The notes under the pieces were generated by a model. The model worked only from the letters and a program-made list of their open reading frames with translations, was not told the DNA's origin and did no database searches. Shown in pieces: positions 1-37,004 of a DNA stretch of 38,358 bases. Each line of letters starts with the position of its first letter. Position 1 is the first letter of the stretch. This DNA is from a virus, in IMG/VR virus record IMGVR_UViG_3300036804_000098, positions 1-38,358 of that record; one strand, given 5' to 3'. Made by a program: the position numbers and the translations under genes.

Positions 1-78
1 ATATCCGTAGCCGATCGTCAGGGGCGTGCCGGTGGTCTCGCTCGCTGAGGATGCCAGGGTTGTAGCGCTATTAGGCAT
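1..78 (-). CDS. Tail gene, N-terminal 26 residues only (cut by window edge)
   Basis: An ATG at 78 overlaps the TGA of the upstream tail gene in an ATGA arrangement, and the frame stays open to the window edge, giving 26 residues ending in GTPLTIGYGY. Position after the gpL-like gene and the start 'GTPxxIxYG' resemble the beginning of siphovirus tail-tip or central tail hub proteins. That is an inference from context plus a very short match. The remainder lies outside the window. Confidence 0.6.
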   Translation of the reverse strand, partial: MPNSATTLASSASETTGTPLTIGYGY

Positions 79-1271
79 CAGATTCTTCTCCGGCGATTGA
101 TCACTTTGAGCGCGACGTTCGCGAGTGCCTCACCATAGTTCTTCTCGTAGTTATTGAGGCTCCCCATGAAGCGCTCGGGAACTTGGCAGGTCTGAAAGCT
201 GTACTGGCACTCTGTCGATCCGGTCGCGCCGCATCCGGGGCCGGCCCAGATCACCTGCTGACAGGTCTCCGATATCTGCCTCGAGGGAGTGTCATCCTGG
301 GCGGGATTGATCAGCTGCGCGCCTTTGAGGCTCACCGTGTCGCGCGGAATGCCTTCGACAGTGAGCGTTCCGTGCACCTCGATCCAGGAGCAGCGCACAT
401 CCGGCTGCCATAGGCGGTAGATAAACATCGCTCCCTCGAGCGCGGAGCGTCGCGCGATCTTCTCAAAGTCTCGGGCCAGTGAATCGCCGCTCAAATTCTG
501 GAGGACGAAACTGCCCGTGTCGGTCGCAAGCGAGCGGTTGAACACGATCTTCGGCACGCTGAGGATCCACGGCAGGTATGGACCGAAGCCGGGTGTCACG
601 TTGATCGGGTTGAGTCCTCCGCCGCCACCGAACGCCGACCCGGCCGGAAGGTGATAGACCACGCAGATCCCGATCGCATATATCGTGCACGATTGCTCAT
701 TCAAACCGAAGAAGGCGTTGATCTCTCCGGTCGAAATCGTATCCCAATAGCGAAACTTATATGAGCTGCTGGGGCCAGGCAAAGAGACTGACGCCGAAAC
801 CGTTCCGGAGCCAGGGGGAAGCGTGATGTCAGCGGGGGCGGGCGAAGCGGTGCATATGTAGTTTACGACCAGGTCGCAGGAATCGACGATCGCGCCCGGT
901 GGCAACGCGGAAGGCTGGAAGTTAGAGAAGATCAGGTCATTCGGAGCAGTGAAGGGACCATCGAAAGTCATGTTTACAAATCCACCCGCTCCCCCGCTGC
1001 GGATGGAAGCCGCTGCCTCGCCGTCTGCGCCGCCCTCGGTAGGAAGAAACCATGCCACGTATTGGCCTGATGCCGGCGGCACCGGGGGATTCAGTGGAAA
1101 TCCCGGAGTCCCCGGAATCACGAATGGCGAAAGCATCGTCGGCGCGCTGATCGGTCGGTCGGACCAGTAGTAGGCGTTCCCATTTACATCGAGCACGTCG
1201 AGCAGATGCGCCGGCGCGATGCCGCTATGGGAAGGGCCTGTCGCTTTAAGAGGCGCGGGAAAGTTAATCAT
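78..1271 (-). CDS. Minor tail / tail-tip protein with gpL-like four-cysteine C-terminus
   Basis: A 397-residue protein of the tail module. The first 300 residues are rich in Pro, Gly and Ser and look beta-structured. The C-terminal part holds four cysteines, C337, C347, C355 and C362 (spacings x9, x7, x6), followed by RFMG. This is the layout seen in lambda gpL, where four cysteines bind a [4Fe-4S] cluster, and in DUF2163-type phage proteins. The role inferred is tail-tip assembly below the tape measure. The start at 1271 has GGAGG five bases upstream and overlaps the stop of the LuxR-type gene (ATGA). Cluster binding is inferred from the cysteine pattern only. Confidence 0.7.
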   Translation of the reverse strand: MINFPAPLKATGPSHSGIAPAHLLDVLDVNGNAYYWSDRPISAPTMLSPFVIPGTPGFPLNPPVPPASGQYVAWFLPTEGGADGEAAASIRSGGAGGFVNMTFDGPFTAPNDLIFSNFQPSALPPGAIVDSCDLVVNYICTASPAPADITLPPGSGTVSASVSLPGPSSSYKFRYWDTISTGEINAFFGLNEQSCTIYAIGICVVYHLPAGSAFGGGGGLNPINVTPGFGPYLPWILSVPKIVFNRSLATDTGSFVLQNLSGDSLARDFEKIARRSALEGAMFIYRLWQPDVRCSWIEVHGTLTVEGIPRDTVSLKGAQLINPAQDDTPSRQISETCQQVIWAGPGCGATGSTECQYSFQTCQVPERFMGSLNNYEKNYGEALANVALKVINRRRRI

Positions 1272-1483
1272 CCGACCTCCATCACTTCTCTGAGCAGCGC
1301 TTCAGATCGGATCGCCTTCAGCGCAAACTGCCCACAGCTCCGAGCGCCGGTCTTTTTGAGGATTGATTTGATATGGCATTTCGCGGTGTGTTCGCTGATG
1401 CCCAGGACGGCAGCGATATTTACACTAGTGAATCCCCTCAGAAGATGCCGGGCCACAGCCCTTTCAGCTCGCGTCAGTTTCAT
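1268..1483 (-). CDS. Solitary LuxR/NarL-type (GerE) helix-turn-helix protein inside the tail operon
   Basis: The 71 residues are almost entirely one LuxR-type DNA-binding domain: LTRAERAVARHLLRG, then VNIAAVLGISEHTAKCHI with the recognition helix, then KSILKKTGA and a final helix. No receiver or ligand-binding domain is present. The gene overlaps the upstream tail gene by ATGA (1480-1483) and the downstream gene by ATGA (1268-1271), so its translation is coupled to tail proteins and it is expressed late. It could feed back on late or lysis genes, or act on the host. Target unknown. The family assignment is strong; the role is inference. Confidence 0.85.
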   Translation of the reverse strand: MKLTRAERAVARHLLRGFTSVNIAAVLGISEHTAKCHIKSILKKTGARSCGQFALKAIRSEALLREVMEVG

Positions 1484-2343
1484 CGCATCACCTGAAGGCC
1501 GAACCAGGTGATGGTGGTTCCCGTCGATGCGCCGTTCTTGGTGCCATCGCAGCTCACCGTGACGCGATGAATATCAAGCGAGACGGCCGGCTCGGAAAGA
1601 ATCATGGCGGTGGCGTTCGCCGCTGCATAGCAATCGACCGTAGAGAGGAGTACTTCATCGAGATAGACATCCGCTTTTCCGAACGCCGGACCCGTCAAGA
1701 GCCAGAGCTGAAACCCGTATCCGCGGTATTCGATTGTGGCCCAGTCGCCGGCGGTACCGGGATCGGTCATCACGATATTTGAGAGCGGGATCGCACCGGT
1801 CCCGCTTCCGCGCAGCCGGCCGCCGAGCGTGATTGCGGGAAGAGAGCCGAGCGTGGCCTCCGTCCAGGCGCCGTTGGTCGCCAGCTGCTGCTCGTTGTGA
1901 TCGTTGTTGACCTGGAAGAGGATTGAATCGTGATCCCAATCCGATGGATAGTTCACCATCGGCGCGGCTGGCATTTCCTCGAACACGGCCGTGATGTCCC
2001 ACTTCGAGTTCGCAGTCTCTTTCTCCTGGCTCACTGACGTGAAGGAACCGACGTACTCGCGGCCGCCCGCATCCCAATTCTTGAAGGTAAAGAAGCCGCC
2101 GTTCTCATATTGCTCGTAGTACCACTTGATGCGCTGGATGATCGGCCAGGTGCGGCCCGTCCAGCCAAGATCGAAGATATGGCCAGTGTTCTGCGTGTCG
2201 CGGCCCCACGCATGGCCGCCAACCGGCTTCTTTTTGAGCAGCGTCGATGGACGGTTGCGCACGAAGTTATAGCTTGGCTGGATCGAATCTCCATCGGCCG
2301 GATCCCAGCCGGGAACAGGATTCAAGACATCAGAAGCCGGCAT
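1480..2343 (-). CDS. Distal tail-like protein
   Basis: 287 residues starting at an ATG with GGGAGG five bases upstream; the frame stays open 24 bases further back but that start lacks a site. The first 120 residues contain YYEQYENGGFFTFKNWD, GREYVGSF and ITAVFEEMP, a pattern typical of distal-tail (Dit/gpM-like) N-terminal domains. The remainder looks like a beta-sandwich, perhaps carbohydrate-binding. It lies directly after the tape measure, as distal tail genes do in siphoviruses, and overlaps its 3' end by 14 bases. Product name rests on position and weak motif similarity. Confidence 0.65.
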   Translation of the reverse strand: MPASDVLNPVPGWDPADGDSIQPSYNFVRNRPSTLLKKKPVGGHAWGRDTQNTGHIFDLGWTGRTWPIIQRIKWYYEQYENGGFFTFKNWDAGGREYVGSFTSVSQEKETANSKWDITAVFEEMPAAPMVNYPSDWDHDSILFQVNNDHNEQQLATNGAWTEATLGSLPAITLGGRLRGSGTGAIPLSNIVMTDPGTAGDWATIEYRGYGFQLWLLTGPAFGKADVYLDEVLLSTVDCYAAANATAMILSEPAVSLDIHRVTVSCDGTKNGASTGTTITWFGLQVMR

Positions 2344-5300
2344 CCGAGCCTCCCGAATTCTCTGCAAAGGAAGCGTTGAACGCGCCGCGGATGTGATCCT
2401 TGTGGTCGTAGAGCATCTGGACCACGCTGCGATGATCCCAGGCCTTCACATTGAAGGTATGGCCGACAGGGGCGGAGCCGGCCGATTGGCGCCCGGTGCT
2501 CGATTGCATCGCGGTGCGATAAGCATCGGCCCCGTAATAGCTCGCCATATCGGAACGGCTCGCGCCGGCACGAATCGCCTCAAGCGCGCCGGCGTGCTCG
2601 GCCGCGGGCTGCTCCGTCATCACAAACTCACCGCGGCGCCCATGCACGAATCCCGTGTCAGAGCCAGTCGCGAAGGAACCGAAATTCTCAAGCCATCCGC
2701 CCTGGTCATATTGCGCAGCGCTCATCGTGAATTGACTGCGCCCGGCCTTCTGTTCGGCGGTCAGCTTGGCCTCAGCCTGTTTGATTTCCTTGTTGATCGT
2801 GTCCCAGTAGTAGTCGCGCGCCGATCCGCCCGCCTTGTCGAGAGTTTGCCGCGCTTCCATGTCGAGCGATTGCATATCGCTATAGGCCGACGTGTAATCC
2901 ATCGAACCGGTCTGATATGCCTGAAAGTCGTTGCCCAGCCGCGGCCGCACCGTTTTGAGATCATAGACGCGTCCCTTTTCCTTGCCGCCGAATCCGATCG
3001 CGCCCATGATGGCGCCGCCGATCGCGCCCACCGCCGCGCCCACCACAGTTCCTTCCGGCCCAAATAAGGAGCCGATCTTGGCGCCCGTTTCCATGCCGCT
3101 CAGGCCACCGCTCAGGGCGCCGCCGAAGCCTCCATTGCCCTCGAAGGCTGAATAGAGACCGGTCGCACCCTGGGCGGCTCCCGATAGATTTCCGAGCGTC
3201 GATCCCGATGATCCGAACATCCCGCCCTTGCCGAAGAGACTCGACTTCATCGAGCCCAAGCTCTGGAAGTTCCCGTTCTTGTCGAACGAGCCGTTGATCA
3301 GCTGATGCTCTACATCCGGCATGTTCGCGTTGCTCTGCGCCCTCTCGAGCACTGCAGCGGGATTCGGCTTTCCCGTGATCGAATGGCTTGTATCAGCGAA
3401 CGCCCCGATGTCTTTGGTGAGATCGCCGGTAGCGGAAGAAAAGATAGTCGCTCCGCGGCTGCCTTCAACGGTCGCAGAACCCGCGGAAATACTGGGAGTA
3501 CTCCTCACGCCGCCTGGCGCGGCCGCGCCGATCGGAGACTGGCCGATAGCTCCGCCAGGGATCGCGCTTGATCCGCCGGTCAATGATTCTCCAGTCAATG
3601 ACTCGCCGGTCATGCGTGGCGTGAATTCAGGTCCGCCAGATGATCTGGAGTTCGCTGATGCAGTCGCGCCGCCGCCCGTGAAAGCCCGCCGCGCACGATT
3701 GATGAAATCGCCAGGCTTCGTTGTCGATGAACCGGTGAACGCCTGGCGCGCGCGATCGAGCGTATCGCCCGCTTCTCCCATCGAAACAAAGCCGCCCCCG
3801 CGCCCGGCATGGACCTCGCCACCCTCAGCAACATCCGAGAACCCCGCTCCCGGCAACAATGGCGCGATGGCGCCGCGCGATGGGCTGCTACCGCCTGCTC
3901 CGCTGCTGGCAGGCTGCGCTATCGCCGGAATGTTGATAGTCGCGGTGCCTATACGGATCTCCGCATTTGCGAGCGAGAAAACATGCGGAGTGACCGCTTC
4001 CGCTCGATGCGCGTGGATCTCGGGAGCGGCGGCCGAGTCAGGCGAAATCAATGATGGAATCAACGATGGATGGGATGCCACCTGGCCGCGCGTCTGAGAC
4101 GGCACGCCGGCGATCCGCGCGGTCAGGCCGCTGAAGCCGCCGCCCGACCAGTTCTCGATGCCTGGAAACGGCAACATCGGAAGATGTGTACCCTGGGAGC
4201 TCGCGCCAGGCGCCGCGAATTTTCCCTGGGCGCGTTGCACAAGCGCCGCCGCGACTTCGCCAGCGGCCTTGTCACCCATCTCCTTCAATGAACCGAGCGG
4301 ATCCTTGAAGAAACGCGAGAACTCGCCGGCCATCTTCTCGCGGGCCTGGCGCGCGGCATCGACCATCTGGGCATCGCGTTCTTCGGCCGCGGCCGCTACA
4401 CGTCGATTGAAGTCTTCTTCGGAAATCAGCTGCTGATTGAGCTGGCTTTGGTAATCGCTCACTCGCTGCTGGAATTCCGTCTGGATTGCGAGGGTCTGTT
4501 GCTTCTCGGCCGAGAGAGATCGCGCATGAGCCTCAGACTCGATCCGCGCTGTCTCATCGGTATTGTGCCGCTGCAGCTCGCCGATCTGACTCGTCTCGTC
4601 AGCGCGGATCCCGGCCTCTCCCCTCGTGAGGTCAGCGGGACGGCCGCCCTTTTCTCGATAATCCTTTTCGAGGTCGCGAATCTGTTTCTGCGCCTCAGCA
4701 TGGATTCTGGCAAATCCCTGCACCGTGCGCTCCGTGGTCTCATCCAGGATGCTGTCCACCTGGTCAGAAAAGGACTGATACGCCTGTCCCAGCTGCTGAG
4801 CCGTCTGCAGACCAATCTCGTTTTCCGCTTTCAATAGCTGACCGGGGTTCATCTTCCGGTCGATCGCGTTCTGGCTGGAGAGCTCGTTGATGCGGTTCGC
4901 GCCCTCCTGGCGAATCTTCGCAGTTCCGGTCAGTCCCGCGGCGAGCGTCTGATCGTGGAGCTTCCGGAGTTCGTTCTCCTCCTCGCGGATCCGCATCAGT
5001 TCTTCCGCATGGAATTTGTCGTGAACAGCTTTTCGCGCGGCTACGGAATTGAGATCCTTTGCCTTCAGATCCTCGATCGCGAACGCTTCCTGCGCGCGAT
5101 AGAGATCCACACCGCGGAGGCCGGCTTCGAGTGCATCCTCCTGGAGCCTGCGGAGCTCCTGGGCCTGCTCCTTGTGCAAATTGTGTAACTGGGCCTCAGC
5201 TTCGCCTTGGGCCTGCAGCTCCTGGATTGCACCCTGCGAAAGCGTTCCATTGGTCAGATCGAACGCGCTCGGTCGCTGCGCTTTGTTACCACGCGCTGTC

Positions 5301-6202
5301 TCCCTTTCGTAGCCATAGCGCGCATCTTCCTGCGCGAGCTCAATCTGTTTTTGCCTTTCTGCAGTAATCCGCTGTTCTTTGGTGAGCTGCTCATCTTTCG
5401 CGTGACTCAATTCGATCTCGGCGCGGCGTTGCTCATGCCCCTGCTCAATGAGATTTTCGGCGCGCAGCTTGTCTTTCTGACGCTCCTCATCGAATTCCTT
5501 AGTCTGGAGATCGTGAGCGGCGCTGCGGTTCGCCAGCATCTGGGCGAGGGGGCCGCCACCGGGAACTAAAAAGTTTACTAGCGTTGATGTCGAGAAGAGT
5601 CCTGGTCGATAGTTGGCCGCGGCTTCAGCCTGGCGTCGATATTCCTCGGCTGCCTTGGTCGCCTCACCGATACGAAGCCGCGTCGTCTCGATCGAATTCG
5701 TGTTTCCAAAATCTTGCTGTTTGATTTTCTTAAGTTCCTGCTCGTAATCCTCGGCCGCCTTGGTAAGAGAAAGATGCTCCTCCCATAGCTTGTGTGCGCC
5801 CTCAGCTAAGGAAGAGAAGATCATGACACCGATCTGAATGGCGCCGATGCCGACGATGGCCGTTCCCACGGCCTTCACCGCAATCTCAGCCGTCTTGCTG
5901 TTTGCGATCAGGTTCTTGAACGCCCGCGGCATGCGGATATCGAGCTCTTCGGTGACGAGGTGAACGCCCTCGCGAGCGGAGAGACCATCCTCTTTCACCT
6001 GATGGAGCGCGCGGCCGGCGCCGCGGCCCGCATTCGCACCTGAAGCCGCCATCTTTTCAAGGGTTGCGTTGAGCTGCTTTAGCGTCGCATCGAGCTGTCC
6101 CGTAGTGCCCTGGGTGCTCTTGATGGCTGTATCGAACGAGCGAATCCCCTGGACTGCGCCCTTCTCGTCAACCAACAGCTCAATCTGGACTGCAGTCGCC
6201 AT
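2330..6202 (-). CDS. Tail tape measure protein
   Basis: The largest protein of the window, 1290 residues. The N-terminal third is charged and predicted coiled coil with many Gln, Glu and Lys. A hydrophobic stretch (about residues 110-130, AVGTAIVGIGAIQIG) resembles the membrane segment of tape measures. The C-terminal half is Gly/Ser-rich with a glycine-zipper run near residues 1050-1090. It follows two chaperone-type genes and precedes the distal tail gene. At roughly 1.5 angstrom per residue it would set a tail near 190 nm; that rule comes from other siphophages. The start ATG at 6202 directly abuts the preceding TAG. Confidence 0.93.
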   Translation of the reverse strand: MATAVQIELLVDEKGAVQGIRSFDTAIKSTQGTTGQLDATLKQLNATLEKMAASGANAGRGAGRALHQVKEDGLSAREGVHLVTEELDIRMPRAFKNLIANSKTAEIAVKAVGTAIVGIGAIQIGVMIFSSLAEGAHKLWEEHLSLTKAAEDYEQELKKIKQQDFGNTNSIETTRLRIGEATKAAEEYRRQAEAAANYRPGLFSTSTLVNFLVPGGGPLAQMLANRSAAHDLQTKEFDEERQKDKLRAENLIEQGHEQRRAEIELSHAKDEQLTKEQRITAERQKQIELAQEDARYGYERETARGNKAQRPSAFDLTNGTLSQGAIQELQAQGEAEAQLHNLHKEQAQELRRLQEDALEAGLRGVDLYRAQEAFAIEDLKAKDLNSVAARKAVHDKFHAEELMRIREEENELRKLHDQTLAAGLTGTAKIRQEGANRINELSSQNAIDRKMNPGQLLKAENEIGLQTAQQLGQAYQSFSDQVDSILDETTERTVQGFARIHAEAQKQIRDLEKDYREKGGRPADLTRGEAGIRADETSQIGELQRHNTDETARIESEAHARSLSAEKQQTLAIQTEFQQRVSDYQSQLNQQLISEEDFNRRVAAAAEERDAQMVDAARQAREKMAGEFSRFFKDPLGSLKEMGDKAAGEVAAALVQRAQGKFAAPGASSQGTHLPMLPFPGIENWSGGGFSGLTARIAGVPSQTRGQVASHPSLIPSLISPDSAAAPEIHAHRAEAVTPHVFSLANAEIRIGTATINIPAIAQPASSGAGGSSPSRGAIAPLLPGAGFSDVAEGGEVHAGRGGGFVSMGEAGDTLDRARQAFTGSSTTKPGDFINRARRAFTGGGATASANSRSSGGPEFTPRMTGESLTGESLTGGSSAIPGGAIGQSPIGAAAPGGVRSTPSISAGSATVEGSRGATIFSSATGDLTKDIGAFADTSHSITGKPNPAAVLERAQSNANMPDVEHQLINGSFDKNGNFQSLGSMKSSLFGKGGMFGSSGSTLGNLSGAAQGATGLYSAFEGNGGFGGALSGGLSGMETGAKIGSLFGPEGTVVGAAVGAIGGAIMGAIGFGGKEKGRVYDLKTVRPRLGNDFQAYQTGSMDYTSAYSDMQSLDMEARQTLDKAGGSARDYYWDTINKEIKQAEAKLTAEQKAGRSQFTMSAAQYDQGGWLENFGSFATGSDTGFVHGRRGEFVMTEQPAAEHAGALEAIRAGASRSDMASYYGADAYRTAMQSSTGRQSAGSAPVGHTFNVKAWDHRSVVQMLYDHKDHIRGAFNASFAENSGGSDAGF

Positions 6203-6586
6203 CTAGCCCATTCCCCTCAAGATGCGTCCAATTTCTCCCATGCATTCGCGGCATCGCAGCGCATGCCTCTCATTTGGCATCCCGCACTTCGGGCAGGGCG
6301 GGTGCTCGGACTGGAATCGCTGGCGTTCACGCTTGAGCGCCAGGAGTCCTTCGGCCTCGACCGCGGTGAGTCGCACCGGCGCGATTTCGAGCAACCCTTC
6401 GAGCCAGATGAGATGGTGCCCCCATTCGAAACAACCTTCCGGCACGGTACGCGCGGGCCGCATGCTCTCGAAAGCCTCCGGGCGCAGATCCGGAGGCGTG
6501 TTCCTGAGCGTGCGCGCGATTTCCGAAGCAACAAAGCCTTCATTGAAAATCTCAACGAAAGCCTGCCGCACCATGCCGCCGGTCAC
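6203..6586 (-). CDS. Second tail-assembly-chaperone-position protein with C-terminal zinc ribbon
   Basis: 127 residues between the first chaperone-position gene and the tape measure. GTG start with GGAGG four bases upstream; GTGA overlap with the stop of the preceding gene. Residues near 97-114 form a CPKC...CREC zinc ribbon. In many siphophages the two genes here make gpG/gpGT through a ribosomal frameshift. I see no convincing slippery heptamer near the junction, and the GTG has its own good ribosome site, so independent coupled translation is more likely. The zinc ribbon is unusual for this position. Confidence 0.6.
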   Translation of the reverse strand: MTGGMVRQAFVEIFNEGFVASEIARTLRNTPPDLRPEAFESMRPARTVPEGCFEWGHHLIWLEGLLEIAPVRLTAVEAEGLLALKRERQRFQSEHPPCPKCGMPNERHALRCRECMGEIGRILRGMG

Positions 6587-19993: not shown

Positions 19994-20059
19994 CTGCCCC
20001 CCTTCAGGACACCCCGAAACCGCCCAACCGACCTAAACCCCGTTTTTGCCACCTCTGAA

Positions 20060-20077
20060 CCCCTCCCACGCCCCCCC
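20060..20077 (-). other. Potential G-quadruplex motif in the late-arm intergenic gap
   Basis: On the minus strand, a run of seven Gs, CGT, GGG, A and GGGG can supply four tracts of three Gs with loops of 1-3 bases. It lies in the 207-base gap between the lysis and packaging modules, upstream of the gene at 19993, on the sense strand of the mRNA. Structure is predicted only. Confidence 0.4.
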
Positions 20078-20136
20078 GAAAACGAACGGAAAGGGGTGGC
20101 GAACAGCATACCGGCATTTATTTTGGCCTACCCCAC

Positions 20137-20202
20137 GTCCGGCCCCTTCCGGACGGCCCGTACGGGCGCCGGCCGGAAGTCCGCCGCGGGGGACTTTTTT
20201 TT
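20137..20202 (+). terminator. Hairpin cluster ending in a plus-strand intrinsic terminator
   Basis: Three inverted repeats lie in tandem. GTCCGG/CCGGAC (20137-20154) has a six-base loop. GCCCGTACGGGC (20156-20167) is a perfect palindrome. AAGTCC/GGACTT (20177-20196) has an eight-base loop and runs into eight Ts (20195-20202). Only the last is a classic terminator, and it acts on rightward transcription, antisense to the late genes. The other two could act on the leftward mRNA. Confidence 0.55.
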
Positions 20203-23002: not shown

Positions 23003-23226
23003 GCGCCCCTCGGTCCCAACGAGGGTTCGCGCGGAAGCGCGGGATAGGAGCGACTTCTTTTACTCCGTCCCACGCCTTCCAATCCGCGCAGCTCTGGCAC
23101 ACCGCGATCTCCAAACGGAAGATTTCGCGGATCCATTTCCCTCGAAGGGTGCGGCCAGAATATGGCGCGGCTATGCCGCGCCCCGAGAGACCTGCGGGAA
23201 CTGGGACAGATGGGGAAGTTAGCGCG
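23003..23226. other. Gap upstream of the lysis cassette: hairpin and repeat copy B
   Basis: This 224-base gap separates the repressor/zinc-ribbon pair from the endolysin. It holds the inverted repeat GGCGCGGC-TAT-GCCGCGCC (23164-23182, 8-bp stem, 3-base loop) and repeat copy B (23182-23224). No convincing gene is seen. A boundary between lysogenic and late transcripts must lie about here, so it probably holds the late promoter, though I cannot point to one with confidence. Confidence 0.5.
23182..23224. repeat. Intergenic repeat, copy B
   Basis: CCCGAGAGACCTGCGGGAACT, nine extra bases, then GGGGAAGTTAGCG. It matches copy A at 14204-14237 and lies at the same relative position, immediately after a minus-strand stop codon. 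Confidence 0.55.
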
Positions 23227-24179: not shown

Positions 24180-24198
24180 CGCTGAGGCGATTTTCCTC

Positions 24199-24228
24199 TT
24201 GACGTTAATATCGCTGCTGCGATATCTT
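24199..24228 (+). promoter_or_regulatory. Early promoter
   Basis: TTGACG (24199-24204), an 18-base spacer and TATCTT (24223-24228) form a sigma70-type promoter directed at the Ner-like gene and transposase operon. The start would fall about 15-17 bases before the gene. It lies in the divergent gap, where early promoters of repressor-controlled phages belong. Confidence 0.6.
24208..24225. promoter_or_regulatory. Candidate operator, perfect 7-4-7 inverted repeat
   Basis: ATATCGC-TGCT-GCGATAT is a perfect inverted repeat between the -35 and -10 boxes of the early promoter. Binding of the XRE repressor or of the Ner-like protein here would block RNA polymerase. It is the only perfect dyad of this size I found in the 72-base gap. 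Confidence 0.65.
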
Positions 24229-24251
24229 TCTGTTTCATCCGGAGCTACAAT

Positions 24252-24470: not shown

Positions 24471-24955
24471 GTTCACGTTCGTCATCTTTTCTCGCCAGCA
24501 GCGCCGCGTCCACTGAAAATCGCGAACGAAGAATTTCAGCCCACCGGCAGCGCGGATTGTTTGATTGCGACGATGTGGCGTCTGGATCGATTAACGATGC
24601 GTCGACGATTCGCTCGATGCTGGTCGAATCGATTCGCAAGTGCGGGAAGAGCCGCGGGCAGATCGCTGACACAATGAGCCGTCTCAGCGGAACGGACGTG
24701 ACGGAACGTAAGCTCAATGCCTTCACGGCCGAGTCTCGCGGTGATGTCAGGTTTCCTCTGGAGCTCGTCAGGGCCTTTTGCATGGCCACCGGAGACTGGA
24801 CCCTTCTCCGAAATTTGATCGAGATGGCCGGTTTCCACTTCGTGACCAAGACAGAGTTCGATGTTCTCCGCCTTGGTCATGAATATCTCACGCACAAGCG
24901 GGCGGCAGAGAATATGGCGCTGCTCGAAAAACGGCTGGCTGGGGAGAAGCTATGA
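24467..24955 (+). CDS. Early regulator-like protein upstream of transposase
   Basis: 162 residues. After a Ser-rich, probably disordered first 40, the core MLVESIRKCGKSRGQIADTM, then DVTERKLNAFTAES and FPLELVRAFCMATGD, forms a helix-turn-helix-like module seen in small genes directly before transposases in several Mu-like phages. The end is a charged helix. It overlaps the transposase gene (ATGATGA). It may control early transcription; no experimental role is known to me. Confidence 0.6.
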   Translation: MSSRSSSFLASSAASTENRERRISAHRQRGLFDCDDVASGSINDASTIRSMLVESIRKCGKSRGQIADTMSRLSGTDVTERKLNAFTAESRGDVRFPLELVRAFCMATGDWTLLRNLIEMAGFHFVTKTEFDVLRLGHEYLTHKRAAENMALLEKRLAGEKL

Positions 24956-27012
24956 TGACGCCCCAACCTCAGCTCGCAATCATTTCTTCGTCCTCAGAAG
25001 AACGATGGCTTTCGGCCGCCGAGGCTGCCCAGGTAACCGGATGGAGTGATCGCTGGCTTCGACTTCAGGCATCTGCTGGAACGATTACTTCGCGACTCAG
25101 TCCTGAAGGAAGATCTTCGAACGGCAAGCCTATCCGCGAATACCTGGCATCCAGTCTCCCCTCCGCGCAATCGAGTTTGGCTATTGTCACTACTAAGCCA
25201 GCTCCGCCGGCTCCCCTCTTCACCGGCATCCCTCAGAGCCTGGAGGGTCCGCGCATTGTTCTCCCCAATGCGAAGCTGCAGGCCCAGGCCGAAAAGCGCC
25301 TGGAGTTGCTGAAGCCGATTCTTGAATTCTCCGAGAATGCGGCGCGCTTCGCGGCTCTCACCGTCAACGGCCATCCCGTCACCAGCGCCGAACGGATGAT
25401 CGAATACATTGCGGCGACGAATAACAAAACGCCACGCACCATCCAGCGCTGGCTCGCCTCTCTTCGCAGCTCGGGACCGGCAGCACTCGCCGACAAGATT
25501 CGGGCGGATAAGGGGCAGAGCCGTTGGTTCAACCGGCATCATCAGGCGGCAATCCTGACCGCCTATCTTTTTCTCAATGAGCGGATGAGCGTGACGTTCG
25601 TCTGCGAGCAGATAGAGCTTAACAGCGAGCAGCTCGGCGTCGAAGAAGACGATCTTCCCAGCCGTGAGACGGTTCGCCTCTTCTGCTCCCAGATTTCGCC
25701 GGCGATGAAAGCCCTGGCGCGAGAAGGCCAGAGGGAATATCGCGAGCGGATGTCGCCCTTCCTGACGCGCAGCTATATCGATATCTTCGCCAACCAGGTC
25801 TGGGTAGGTGACACGGCGATCCTCGACGTTGAGGCGGCCAACGATGTCTACCCCGAGCTGCCTGAGCTGGCGCCGCTCCGCCTGCGTATGACCGCCTTCG
25901 AGGATTTCCGCAGCCGAAAGATTCTCGGCGTCACATTCGCGGTCGAGGGAAGTTCGATATCGATCAGCGCGGCGATGCTGCGCGGGATTCTTCAGAACGG
26001 CCTTCCGGAAATGATCTATGTCGATAACGGCAAGGACTTCCGGAAGGTTGCGCGGAACGCGCAGCGCGGCCTGGACGTCGTGCCTCTCACCGACAAGGAC
26101 TTCGGGCCGATCGAGGAACAGGGCTTATTGGCGCGGCTGGGCATCGGCGTCACACACTGCATCCCCCGCCATCCCCAATCGAAGCACGTCGAGCGCTTCT
26201 TCCGCACCCTGCACACCCGCTTTGATCGTGTGCACTCGACCTATACCGGTGGATCGCCGGCAACCCGGCCCGATTCGACCGAACAAGCCATGATGCGGCA
26301 TCGCCGGCTTCTCAAGAAGGGCCGCGCTGAAGAGTCCAGGCATCCTTATGCCAGCCGCATCATTGCAGGTTGCCTCTCCTGGATCGAGGAGTACAACGAC
26401 CGGCCTCACCAGGGCGAAGGAATGGATGGCCGAAGCCCCAACCAGGTCTTCGCCCAGGAGTTGAACCCCAACCAGCGCCCCGCACCCGATTTCGCCAAGC
26501 TCGCCATCCTGATGGCCGAATATCAACGCCGCCAGGTGCATGAGTGCGCCATCACCCTCAATCGCCGCCGCTACACGCCCCGCAATGAGGATCGCGCGGC
26601 CTGGCATGTCATGCACGAACAGAACGAGCGGGAAGTCCTGATCGCCTTCAATCCCGCGGATTCCGATTTCGCGGTGGCGCTCGATCCGGACGGCCGTTTC
26701 CTCGCCTGGCTAGAAGTCGAGCAGAAGATTCGCTTCGCTCCCAACGATCCGGAAGTGCAGCGCCAGATCGGTGAATCGATGGATATCCGCCGCGGCCTCG
26801 AAAAGCATACGCGCACCAAGCTGAATGCAATCGAGATCGCCGCGCGCGCCAATGGCGCGAAGTCGGCCGAAGAGATGCTCTATCAACGCCTGCAGCTCCC
26901 GGCCGACGCCGCATCTGCAATCACTCACCGCAAGCCACGCCTTGCGCCAACCACAAAGCCGCCCGCACCAAAGACAGCGGCTGAAGTCGCACGCGAACTC
27001 ATGGGGGAATGA
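24952..27012 (+). CDS. MuA-like DDE transposase
   Basis: 686 residues. An N-terminal winged/HTH domain (17-68, WLSAAEAAQVTGWSDRWL) suits end or enhancer binding. A second DNA-binding region spans about 145-260 (RTIQRWLASL). The RNase H-like core carries D287 (VWVGDTAILD), D358 (IYVDNGKDF) and E414 (SKHVERFF), a full DDE triad. A Mu-type beta-barrel follows (about 510-590), then a basic tail that in Mu contacts MuB and ClpX. It joins phage ends to target DNA for integration and replicative transposition. GGGGAG lies five bases before the ATG. Apparently intact. Binding sites are probably the repeats at 37907-38123. Confidence 0.95.
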   Translation: MMTPQPQLAIISSSSEERWLSAAEAAQVTGWSDRWLRLQASAGTITSRLSPEGRSSNGKPIREYLASSLPSAQSSLAIVTTKPAPPAPLFTGIPQSLEGPRIVLPNAKLQAQAEKRLELLKPILEFSENAARFAALTVNGHPVTSAERMIEYIAATNNKTPRTIQRWLASLRSSGPAALADKIRADKGQSRWFNRHHQAAILTAYLFLNERMSVTFVCEQIELNSEQLGVEEDDLPSRETVRLFCSQISPAMKALAREGQREYRERMSPFLTRSYIDIFANQVWVGDTAILDVEAANDVYPELPELAPLRLRMTAFEDFRSRKILGVTFAVEGSSISISAAMLRGILQNGLPEMIYVDNGKDFRKVARNAQRGLDVVPLTDKDFGPIEEQGLLARLGIGVTHCIPRHPQSKHVERFFRTLHTRFDRVHSTYTGGSPATRPDSTEQAMMRHRRLLKKGRAEESRHPYASRIIAGCLSWIEEYNDRPHQGEGMDGRSPNQVFAQELNPNQRPAPDFAKLAILMAEYQRRQVHECAITLNRRRYTPRNEDRAAWHVMHEQNEREVLIAFNPADSDFAVALDPDGRFLAWLEVEQKIRFAPNDPEVQRQIGESMDIRRGLEKHTRTKLNAIEIAARANGAKSAEEMLYQRLQLPADAASAITHRKPRLAPTTKPPAPKTAAEVARELMGE

Positions 27013-27951
27013 ATGGAACCGTCGCATCGTCCGGAGGAAGTCATCGAACTGGCTAAAGCCTACCTGCAGCGCCGCGGGATGCAGTCGCAGGATTTCGCGC
27101 GCCACATCGGCTACAGCTACACCACTTTGGTCAAGTTTTTGAACAACACTTATGAGCGCAAGAATGGCTCGAAGCGGGAAGCGATCTGCGCGGCCATTCT
27201 CGATTTCATCTCCAAACATCCGATTGACGTACCTGAGGAGTTCCAGGGGAAGCTTTACGAGATCGGGAATGTGCGCGTGCTGCGCGATGTCTTTCAGCGG
27301 CTTTGTGCTGAGCCATGCATCCTGTTGAGCTATGCGCCTCCTGGAAGCGGCAAGACCGATGTTGCGCGCGCATTGATGCCTCAGTTCCGCGAGCCGGTTC
27401 CCATGCTCCGCATCTACTGCCGCGAGTCGATCACCCGGCGTGACTTGATGCAGCGCATCAGTGAGAAGTGCGGATCGGTGATTGATGGCTCGATCGAGCG
27501 CACCATCCGCAATCTGCGGTTCGATTTCCGTGGCCGCCGGGTCGCTCTCTACTTCGACGAAGCGCAGCATCTGAGCGTCGAGTGCCTGGAAACGATCCGC
27601 GAGCTCTATGACGAGCTGCGCTGGAGCCTCTGCTTGGCTGGATCCCATCAGCTCGATCGCATCTTCACCGAATGGGCTGGCGATCTGGAGCAGCTGGAGC
27701 GCCGCATCACCGACAAGATATATATCCCGTCGGTGACGGCCGAAGAGGCCGAGCAGATCATCCAGTCCGAAGTTTCGGGTCTGAATAAAGCCAAGATCCG
27801 GACCCTCATTGAGCGCTCCTATGTGCAGCTCAAGAAGGGCGAGCAGTACCTCTCCATCGGTCGCGTCATGGCCAACATCAAGGAACTCCAAAAACTGATG
27901 CCGGACGCGGATCTTGTCACTTCCATCAACGCCTCGGAGGAAATCGCATGA
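27013..27951 (+). CDS. MuB-like AAA+ ATPase, target-DNA activator
   Basis: 312 residues. An N-terminal helix-turn-helix (15-60, SQDFARHIGYSYTTLVKFLNN) precedes an AAA+ domain: Walker A APPGSGKT (108-115), Walker B ALYFDEAQ (178-185), a sensor-1-like LAGSH (209-213) and an Arg-rich ERRI segment (229-232). In Mu, MuB coats target DNA with ATP, stimulates MuA and gives target immunity. The ATG follows the transposase TGA by one base with GGGGGA upstream, so both are made together. Closer in its HTH to MuB/TniB-type ATPases than to other AAA+ proteins. Confidence 0.9.
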   Translation: MEPSHRPEEVIELAKAYLQRRGMQSQDFARHIGYSYTTLVKFLNNTYERKNGSKREAICAAILDFISKHPIDVPEEFQGKLYEIGNVRVLRDVFQRLCAEPCILLSYAPPGSGKTDVARALMPQFREPVPMLRIYCRESITRRDLMQRISEKCGSVIDGSIERTIRNLRFDFRGRRVALYFDEAQHLSVECLETIRELYDELRWSLCLAGSHQLDRIFTEWAGDLEQLERRITDKIYIPSVTAEEAEQIIQSEVSGLNKAKIRTLIERSYVQLKKGEQYLSIGRVMANIKELQKLMPDADLVTSINASEEIA

Positions 27952-31646: not shown

Positions 31647-32119
31647 TGAGCCAGACATCTCTCTTTCCCGAATCCACAGAGAAGCGCATTCAGCGCATTG
31701 ATGGCCTGATCCTGCACCTGATCTGCGGCGGCTCCGGTGGCCCATTGAATCTCCAGATCAGAGATGACGAGAAGGCTGTCCTGGAATGTCTCCGATTTCG
31801 TCGCGGCCTTAAGAACGCGTTGACGATCCGCGAGATTCAGCTGCGCACAAAGCTCGACGCGCGTGTCATTAAGCAGGCTGTCCGTACTTTGCGTCTGACT
31901 TTCCGGCTCCCGATCGGCTCCTGGAAACACGCCGACAAGGGTGGCTACTTCCTGATCGTCGATGACGAAGATCTCGCGGCCTGGGTGAAAGACGTGCTCG
32001 ACCAGGTCCGCGCCGAGATCGGTGTGTTGAGGGCGGCCGCGGGGCACCAGGCCAGCCTGGAACTCCTCGGCCAGCTGCAGATGGAAGTGCAGCAGGAAAA
32101 CGAGGCCAGCCATGGGTAA
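31646..32119 (+). CDS. Winged-helix early protein
   Basis: 157 residues from the ATG at 31646 (a TTG three bases earlier is an alternative). NALTIREIQLRTKLDARVIKQAVRTLRLTFRLPIGS (about 62-95) followed by GGYFLIVDDEDL is a winged helix-turn-helix with wing, like that of phage replication/regulation proteins that test conditions by 'LPIGS...GYfl'. The C-terminus is helical. DNA binding is likely; role unknown. Confidence 0.65.
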   Translation: MSQTSLFPESTEKRIQRIDGLILHLICGGSGGPLNLQIRDDEKAVLECLRFRRGLKNALTIREIQLRTKLDARVIKQAVRTLRLTFRLPIGSWKHADKGGYFLIVDDEDLAAWVKDVLDQVRAEIGVLRAAAGHQASLELLGQLQMEVQQENEASHG

Positions 32120-32339
32120 CCTCCGCGGTCATGCCTTTCATGTCGCGGCCGATGGGAGCGGTATGGATATTCGCGAGATTGCGAAACGCTTGGGAGTTAG
32201 CCATGGAACGGTTTGGTTTGATCTGCAGTCGGCGTTTTCCAAGCTTCGTCGATATCCGGGATTTATGGATGCGCTTCAGGAATTGGCGCGAATCAACAAA
32301 CAGGCGAGACAGACGAGGGACTCCCAATATGCCGACTGA
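32112..32339 (+). CDS. Sigma region-4-like helix-turn-helix protein
   Basis: 75 residues. IREIAKRLGVSHGTVWFDLQSAFSKLRR (21-48) is a helix-turn-helix of the sigma-70 region 4 / terminase small-subunit type. N-terminus is short and C-terminus basic. It overlaps the preceding gene by eight bases and the next by eleven. Possibly another transcription regulator of the early arm. Confidence 0.6.
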   Translation: MGNLRGHAFHVAADGSGMDIREIAKRLGVSHGTVWFDLQSAFSKLRRYPGFMDALQELARINKQARQTRDSQYAD

Positions 32340-33283: not shown

Positions 33284-33700
33284 ATGAGTATACCTAAGAG
33301 GCACATCCTGATCGTCGATTCGGATCCTGACCGCACCTGCGAGCTGAGGTTCCTGCTGAGAACCTGGATAACTTTTGCGGTTGACGTTGTGGACTGCCCG
33401 GCCGGCTTGCTCGCGATCGACGCCACCTGGCCAGAGCTGGTGATCGCCGACGCTTCCTTTCCACAGCTGGCGGAGCTGCTCCCGGAAATGCATTCCCGGT
33501 TTCCTTTCGCGCGCATCCTCGTGCTCGCCGCTACTGAATTCCAAACGACCAACCTGATCGCCGACGGCTATCTCAGCGGCATTTACTCGAAGCATGAACT
33601 CCGTGATCGCGTCATCTTCATGCTTCGCCGTAAGCGCGGTCCAAAGAAGCCCGTGGTCTCAGCCAGGCCTGAGATCGAGGCGGCGCGGAGGTTGGCATGA
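33284..33700 (+). CDS. Stand-alone response-regulator receiver (REC) domain protein
   Basis: 138 residues from the ATG at 33284 with GGAGG nine bases upstream. RHILIVDSDP (6-15), ELVIADASFP (51-60), ARILVLAATE (76-85) and GIYSKHEL (99-106) match the CheY-like beta strands. The phosphoacceptor should be D56, with D12 of the acidic pair and K103 present. The second acidic residue is S13, and the switch Thr looks like A82 (T84 is near). The tail is basic. No effector domain is attached; the next gene, ATGA-coupled, is a Fis-type DNA-binding protein. No kinase is encoded in the window, so phosphate would come from the host. Confidence 0.75.
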   Translation: MSIPKRHILIVDSDPDRTCELRFLLRTWITFAVDVVDCPAGLLAIDATWPELVIADASFPQLAELLPEMHSRFPFARILVLAATEFQTTNLIADGYLSGIYSKHELRDRVIFMLRRKRGPKKPVVSARPEIEAARRLA

Positions 33701-33954
33701 AGCCCCTGGAACAAGCTGTCGAAGACTTCCGCACGGAATATCTGCTCAAGGCAGTGTTCGAGGCAAAGGGGCATTTCCAGCGCGCGGCGGCCGCGGCTGG
33801 CATTCACCGCAACACGATGACCCGGATCCTTCACAAAGCAGGCTACAGTCATCGGCGCGTGAGGCGGATGCTGCGCACGCATGAAGCGGTGAATGCGCCG
33901 AAGCCTGTGCAATCGGCCCGCCCCGAGTGTATCCAGCCGCGGAGGATCGCATGA
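33697..33954 (+). CDS. Fis/NtrC-type helix-turn-helix protein
   Basis: 85 residues. LEQAVEDFRTEYLLKAVFEA (4-23), then GHFQRAAAAAGIHRNTMTRILHKAGY (25-50), is the Fis-family dimerisation helix and helix-turn-helix found at the C-terminus of NtrC- and RegA-type response regulators. The tail is basic and proline-rich. GGAGG lies five bases before the ATG, which overlaps the receiver gene stop. Together the two genes look like a RegA/PrrA-like regulator split in two. It may bend DNA at the enhancer or phage ends, or activate late genes; this is inference. Confidence 0.8.
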   Translation: MKPLEQAVEDFRTEYLLKAVFEAKGHFQRAAAAAGIHRNTMTRILHKAGYSHRRVRRMLRTHEAVNAPKPVQSARPECIQPRRIA

Positions 33955-36466: not shown

Positions 36467-36747
36467 TCGATCCGGAGCTTCTGGAAAGAAAACGGCGCGA
36501 GATCCTTTCGTGTGCTGAAAGCGAGCTACGAGTCTCGCCCGCGCTGAACAGGCTCAGCGATGAATATCGGTGGTTCGCGGAGCATGTTTCGCCGGAATGG
36601 CGTTCGCTCTGTTTCGACATCAAGGTGGAAGTCGAAGTGATCGACACGAAGCAAAACGGAATGACCTTTGTTCTGCCTGGAGAGGAGGGACCTGGTCGAT
36701 GGCACTGGTTGAAACGCGCGTTGAAACGGTTGTTCGGATGGGTGTAA
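36463..36747 (+). CDS. Early protein, unknown
   Basis: 94 residues from a GTG at 36463 overlapping the previous TGA, with GGAGG ten bases upstream (an ATG at 36445 is possible). N-terminal half helical, C-terminal half with strands and a basic, Trp-rich end (WHWLKRALKRLFGW) that could bind membrane or nucleic acid. No family recognised. Confidence 0.5.
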   Translation: MIDPELLERKRREILSCAESELRVSPALNRLSDEYRWFAEHVSPEWRSLCFDIKVEVEVIDTKQNGMTFVLPGEEGPGRWHWLKRALKRLFGWV

Positions 36748-37004
36748 GGCGCCGGAAGTTCCGGCCGCCTGAGCAGCTGCTACTCCCCTGGAGTCCGCAG
36801 CACACCATTAGTGTGACTCATGCGGCTGAGATCCTCGACACCTCTATCAATACCATTCATCGGCTCATCGAAGACGGATCGATCAAGGCCTACAAGGTCC
36901 GCCAAAAGAAAACCTCTCCCTGGCGCGTCAACTATGACTCGCTCCTCGAATACATTGAGGAGCTGCATAAGATCCACGGTCTGGAAAAGAGGTTCGACGG
37001 ATGA
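36699..37004 (+). CDS. Excisionase/MerR-type helix-turn-helix protein
   Basis: 101 residues from the ATG at 36699 (or a later ATG at 36738). ISVTHAAEILDTSINTIHRLIEDGSI (36-61) and a wing KAYKVRQKKTSPWRVNYDSLLEYI match the 'HTH_17'/excisionase fold. It overlaps the preceding gene by 49 bases. Probably a DNA-bending regulator acting near the phage right end, about 0.9 kb away; target is inferred. Confidence 0.65.
   Translation: MALVETRVETVVRMGVRRRKFRPPEQLLLPWSPQHTISVTHAAEILDTSINTIHRLIEDGSIKAYKVRQKKTSPWRVNYDSLLEYIEELHKIHGLEKRFDG

Follow-up and report, generated by a model that had tools for sequence, protein, structure and literature searches.

What is a solitary DNA-binding domain doing between two tail genes of a phage? 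The question arises from the IMG/VR virus record IMGVR_UViG_3300036804_000098, of which the whole 38,358 nucleotides (the window) were analysed. A short gene at positions 1268-1483 of the minus strand, designated here the HTH gene, encodes a protein of 71 residues with a helix-turn-helix (HTH) domain of the GerE/LuxR type and is placed between a gpM-like and a gpL-like tail gene. An earlier sequence-only reading described it as a lone LuxR/NarL-type DNA-binding domain amid tail genes with ATGA overlaps on both sides, and the Pfam, fold and sequence analyses bear out this description. The explanation favoured here, which is fairly probable, is that the HTH gene is accessory cargo in the gpM-like/gpL-like slot of Mu-like acidobacterial siphophages and codes for a late-made, receiver-free DNA-binding regulator.

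The HTH gene starts with ATG and is read without internal stop in the window sequence. Its product matches the Pfam family GerE (PF00196) with 41.4 bits (E-value of 1.1e-10), residues 2-54 being aligned with positions 2-54 of the 57 in the model. As the match is far above the curated cut-off of 23.5 bits, the open reading frame (ORF) is not due to chance. A frame artefact was considered and rejected: the antisense ORF at 1206-1511 (plus strand), on which no separate search was made, is taken to shadow the GerE frame. The AlphaFold single-sequence model of the protein shows a mean predicted local distance difference test score of 94.4 and five helices (residues 5-15, 20-27, 31-45, 50-59 and 61-68). 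With Foldseek, the model superimposes on the C-terminal domain of DNA-bound NarL (1je8) with a root-mean-square deviation of 0.7 and template modelling (TM) scores of 0.77/0.83, and further matches are LiaR, VraR, DegU and GerE. The phmmer search with the protein matched GerE (1fse) and RhlR. The four-helix fold with a recognition helix that is typical of the GerE/LuxR type is present in the model, as judged from AlphaFold and from the Foldseek matches to 1je8 and 1fse. When aligned with host effector domains, the protein keeps the family's invariant residues L3, E7, L27, T33 and H37, and also the nearly invariant K35. Sequence and model together make it very probable that the 71 residues form a DNA-binding domain. 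Only GerE was matched by Pfam in this chain: neither the receiver domain of a NarL/FixJ response regulator nor the autoinducer-binding domain of a quorum-sensing LuxR solo was found.

The HTH gene has four bases in common with each neighbour gene. At its entry (1480-1483, minus strand), the stop of the gpM-like gene and the start of the HTH gene form an ATGA overlap, which is read as ...GTGATGCG-ATGA-AACTG... and is preceded by an AGGTG-type ribosome site at about 1489-1493. At its exit (1268-1271, minus strand), the stop of the HTH gene and the start of the gpL-like gene overlap in the same manner, as ...GTGATGGAGGTCGG-ATGA-TTAAC..., with a GGAGG ribosome site at 1276-1280 inside the HTH gene. 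No sigma-70-like promoter was found in positions 1-6300 of the window by a consensus scan, which cannot prove the absence of an own promoter. The same type of scan gave no terminator-like site flanking the HTH gene, the sole one on the minus strand being located at 442-429 within the gpL-like gene. Given the ATGA-coupled layout and the lack of a promoter match, late co-expression of the HTH gene with the tail genes is the natural inference.

Is the HTH gene a fixed component of this tail operon? The gpM-like and gpL-like proteins were used to search for relatives, and the junction between the two genes was tabulated for 63 distinct contigs, a set that includes near-identical ones. The HTH gene is present at the junction in none of the 63. 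In most of these contigs the two tail genes overlap via ATGA or GTGA, or are a few bases apart, and in the nearest relative by terminase (G239/L029, 85%) they are directly joined. The arrangement in the window is that of a moron or plasticity region, a single gene inserted between genes that are adjacent in relatives. For this position, the same-place comparison therefore returns the one-off insertion that the sequence-only reading had set against its own proposal.

The junction receives other genes in some relatives. The inserts are a 26-residue membrane-like peptide in L016, a 95-residue cysteine-rich protein in L026 (L026:5717-6001) and a 211-residue protein with zinc-finger-like cysteines in L027. 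All three are unrelated to the HTH gene, and their stop codons overlap the gpL-like start in an ATGA. In four other contigs (L002, 6864-6911; L021, 5957-6004; L066; and L133, where the gap is 40), the junction contains an ORF of 15 codons with ATGA at both ends. Three of these four ORFs have in common that they end in ...GAP and that a GGGGGCCCC-like palindrome immediately precedes the start of the gpL-like gene. A homolog of the cysteine-rich protein of L026 (63%) is encoded in a sister phage, within the early arm (G225:39563-39835, L186) and downstream of receiver-like and Fis-like genes. This location hints that the tail slot can be reached by accessory genes from the early arm. On gene order, the gpM/gpL junction is probably a slot for exchangeable cargo; since just three clear inserts exist besides that of the window, the term hot spot would be too strong. 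In most relatives the tape-measure gene directly adjoins the gpM-like gene, and the tabulation of inserts covered the gpM-like/gpL-like junction.

The origin of the HTH gene was sought in viruses and hosts. No close homolog of the 71-residue protein was confirmed in viral contigs, where the matches of the profile scan are mostly full-length regulators and not solos, and the phage records gave none except one partial match of 45% in an unannotated fecal contig. A profile search of the records of 43 relatives found no close homolog anywhere in them, and six host bins of relatives contain no homolog at an E-value of 1e-6. When host genomes were searched across the family, 156 of the 200 contained matches to the protein, mostly ordinary receiver-GerE response regulators, with 33-49% identity among the top matches; as these are mostly full response regulators at such identities, no recent donor is visible. 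The third-position guanine-cytosine (GC) fraction of the HTH gene is 0.61, compared with a mean of 0.72 in late-gene segments (4.5th percentile), and its overall GC lies at the 11th percentile. These low values are consistent with acquisition.

Solo GerE domains are also found elsewhere in this group of phages. In G239, a protein of 112 residues with an N-terminal CPCC motif and a GerE match above the cut-off (28.5 bits) is encoded between the lysis genes and the terminase region (L193:2049-2387; G239 2049-2387, plus strand), and is about 21% identical to the window protein. Weak, sub-threshold GerE-like small proteins occur in the lysis-terminase interval of G220 (L156:1336-1749, minus strand) and in the early arm of G214 (L157:1492-1713), the latter adjoining a gene that we take to be GemA-like. 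In the Pfam search of 31 relatives, no GerE match above the cut-off was obtained. The solo domains of the relatives are about 18-23% identical to that of the window, and all four are about 18-26% identical in pairwise comparison. Because of these low identities, the four genes appear to have been acquired independently, or to be paralogs of great age, rather than to be copies of one wandering gene. Many solo LuxR-C proteins of 70-140 residues from tailed phages are present in BFVD, and literature searches gave no direct precedent, either on a solo GerE gene within a phage tail operon or on Mu-like phages of acidobacteria.

The sequence-only reading also joined the HTH gene to a receiver and a Fis-type protein of the early arm, as three separated parts of response regulators. 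Both genes are real early-arm ORFs on the plus strand with homologs in relatives. The receiver-like protein (33284-33697) has a sub-threshold Pfam match (14.8 bits, cut-off of 30.2) and plausibly keeps the acidic and lysine positions, and the Fis-like protein (33697-33951) matches several HTH models weakly. Homologs of the receiver-like protein are found in 10 of 26 relatives and of the Fis-like protein in 4 of 26, in all cases without the tail HTH gene, which argues against the three being parts of one split regulator. An inverted-repeat search of the gaps proposed as binding targets (19994-20200, 23003-23226 and 24180-24251) detected short dyads only and no specific candidate site.

How would such a gene act? 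Apparently without a promoter of its own, it would be expressed late, on the tail messenger RNA, by reinitiation or translational coupling. The protein, with neither a receiver nor a ligand domain, would be a constitutive DNA binder, dimeric in the manner of GerE or of the NarL C-terminal domain in isolation. Late in infection it might then activate or repress a small number of promoters, of the host or of the phage, or compete at them with the NarL-type regulators of the host. Such binding or competition is possible in view of the identity of about 33-49% to host NarL-type effector domains. The HTH gene is probably an optional regulator and not a conserved part of life-cycle control. Its status as exchangeable cargo is argued by its absence at the junction in relatives, by the other unrelated ORFs in the slot and by the early-arm homolog of a slot gene. 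Some points weigh against this explanation. The sampled records may omit ones very close to the window, so that strain-level relatives with the HTH gene may exist; the composition signal is modest; and the gene may be a neutral or decaying passenger, since there are no near relatives with which to measure selection (the ratio of nonsynonymous to synonymous substitution, dN/dS). A broader form of the proposal, which we hold only tentatively and regard as rather doubtful, is that the junction is a promoterless ATGA-to-ATGA docking slot in which small regulators that can be exchanged (bare GerE domains and zinc-binding proteins) are expressed with the tail genes, giving each phage a different late modulator of host transcription or defence.

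The passenger explanation supposes that the domain was captured by recombination and persists solely because an in-frame, ATGA-ended insert leaves the tail expression undisturbed. The sporadic presence of the gene, the diverged host effector domains (33-49% identical) and the 15-codon ATGA-to-ATGA ORFs of L002, L021, L066 and L133, which could be remnants, agree with it; we nevertheless consider it unlikely, as the domain is complete and intact, has a well-formed predicted fold and retains the invariant family positions. A conserved late regulator, as the sequence-only reading proposed, would be made with the tail proteins and would time lysis or shut off early genes, together with the receiver and Fis proteins. 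Its late position and coupling fit this role, as does the solo GerE gene in the late arm of the sister phage G239, in the lysis-terminase interval. The proposal is weakened by the comparison with relatives and is quite improbable: the gene is missing from all 63 junctions, none of the 43 relatives has a close homolog anywhere, the solo GerE domains of relatives are only about 18-23% identical to it, and the receiver and Fis genes occur without it.

Two further roles are very improbable. A role in tail-tip structure or assembly, with the GerE fold used by coincidence, would explain the position between two tail-tip genes, and the sequence-only reading had named a structural tail component as an outcome that would refute its proposal; all sampled relatives encode the same tail genes and do without the HTH gene, and the protein keeps a DNA-binding signature rather than that of a generic helical bundle. 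An autorepressor of an accessory operon (e.g., anti-CRISPR) is suggested by the Aca proteins, HTH regulators whose genes accompany acr genes (PMC9410906). The HTH gene, on the contrary, is single between two core tail genes, with no partner ORF in the slot and no separate promoter found.

The flanking genes owe their tail identity to their position after a tape-measure-like protein of 1290 residues (2330-6202, minus strand) and to four invariant cysteines in the downstream protein. The tape-measure-like protein is recognized by gene order and length, and its homologs precede the gpM-like gene in relatives. The upstream gene (1480-2367, minus strand; gpM-like, distal tail position) is present in all 63 relatives and follows the tape measure; it is called from TTG with 295 residues, and its probable true start is the ATG at 2343 (MPASD...). 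The downstream gpL-like gene (78-1271, minus strand; 397 residues) is conserved in relatives (alignment A2), with Cys337, Cys347, Cys355 and Cys362 invariant, a signature that we take to be of the gpL type. Residues 77-231 are missing from the homologs of many relatives (e.g., L004, L009, L023 and L027), which gives long and short forms of the gene. Neither flanking protein matched a family in Pfam or PHROG, and PHROG gave few functions for tail genes.

Judged from its gene content, which includes MuA/MuB-type and Mu-type head genes, the carrier is a Mu-like transposing siphophage. The genes of the Mu-type transposase A and the AAA ATPase B (24952-27948, plus strand) have homologs in G206 (58.6% and 38%, respectively); in Pfam, rve and Mu-transpos_C are weak and below the cut-off, and AAA_22 reaches 55.3 bits. 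The record also encodes a repressor-like HTH protein, a glucosaminidase endolysin, a Mu gp27-like protein (Mu Gp27, 28.2 bits) and the capsid, and its terminase, portal and head genes lead into a long tail module. Soil acidobacteria of the Acidobacteriaceae or Acidobacteriales are the likely hosts, since relatives of the gpM-like gene are found in six contigs of their metagenome-assembled genomes. Further small HTH proteins, with sigma-70 region 4-like and HTH_17 matches, are encoded in the early arm at 32112-32336 and 36570-37001 (plus strand), and the phage is therefore rich in small DNA-binding proteins.

If the junction is indeed such a slot, promoterless regulatory cargo can be exchanged even between tail-tip genes that are as tightly coupled as those of this transposing siphophage, and the junction is a simple place to seek small, late-made, host-directed proteins in acidobacterial phages, themselves poorly known. 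The effect for the HTH gene alone is modest, as neither solo HTH proteins of the LuxR type nor accessory slots are new. GerE is a free-standing regulator made of only the LuxR-type HTH domain. The GerE of Bacillus subtilis, whose chain in 1fse has 74 residues and consists of this domain alone, and the isolated NarL C-terminal domain (1je8) are, like the window protein, bare HTH domains of about 70 residues with a matching fold; the window protein differs in being phage-borne, encoded in a tail operon and about 33-35% identical to them. The solo LuxR-C or 'CsgD HTH' proteins of tailed phages (BFVD A0A6J7WT15 and A0A6J5L9S6; PHROG 3282 and 3855) are likewise small and have the same domain, whereas for the window protein no close sequence relative was found in viral contigs and one partial match in phage records. 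The best viral match of the profile scan is a protein of 90 residues in a 123.7-kb phage contig (IMGVR_3300021420_000018), 49-51% identical over about 45-50 residues; it differs in its N-terminal coiled-coil-like extension, in the type of phage and in its location among portal-like and replication genes. In the Mu-like siphophages of Pseudomonas (D3112-like), short accessory ORFs occur singly at set positions between the core genes, and one of these plasticity regions contains anti-CRISPR genes (PMC4378225). As in these regions and morons, a single short accessory ORF is found in the window between core genes of a transposing siphophage. In contrast to them, the window insert is ATGA-coupled, has no own promoter that could be found and brings a regulatory cargo, a bare GerE domain, into the tail-tip module.
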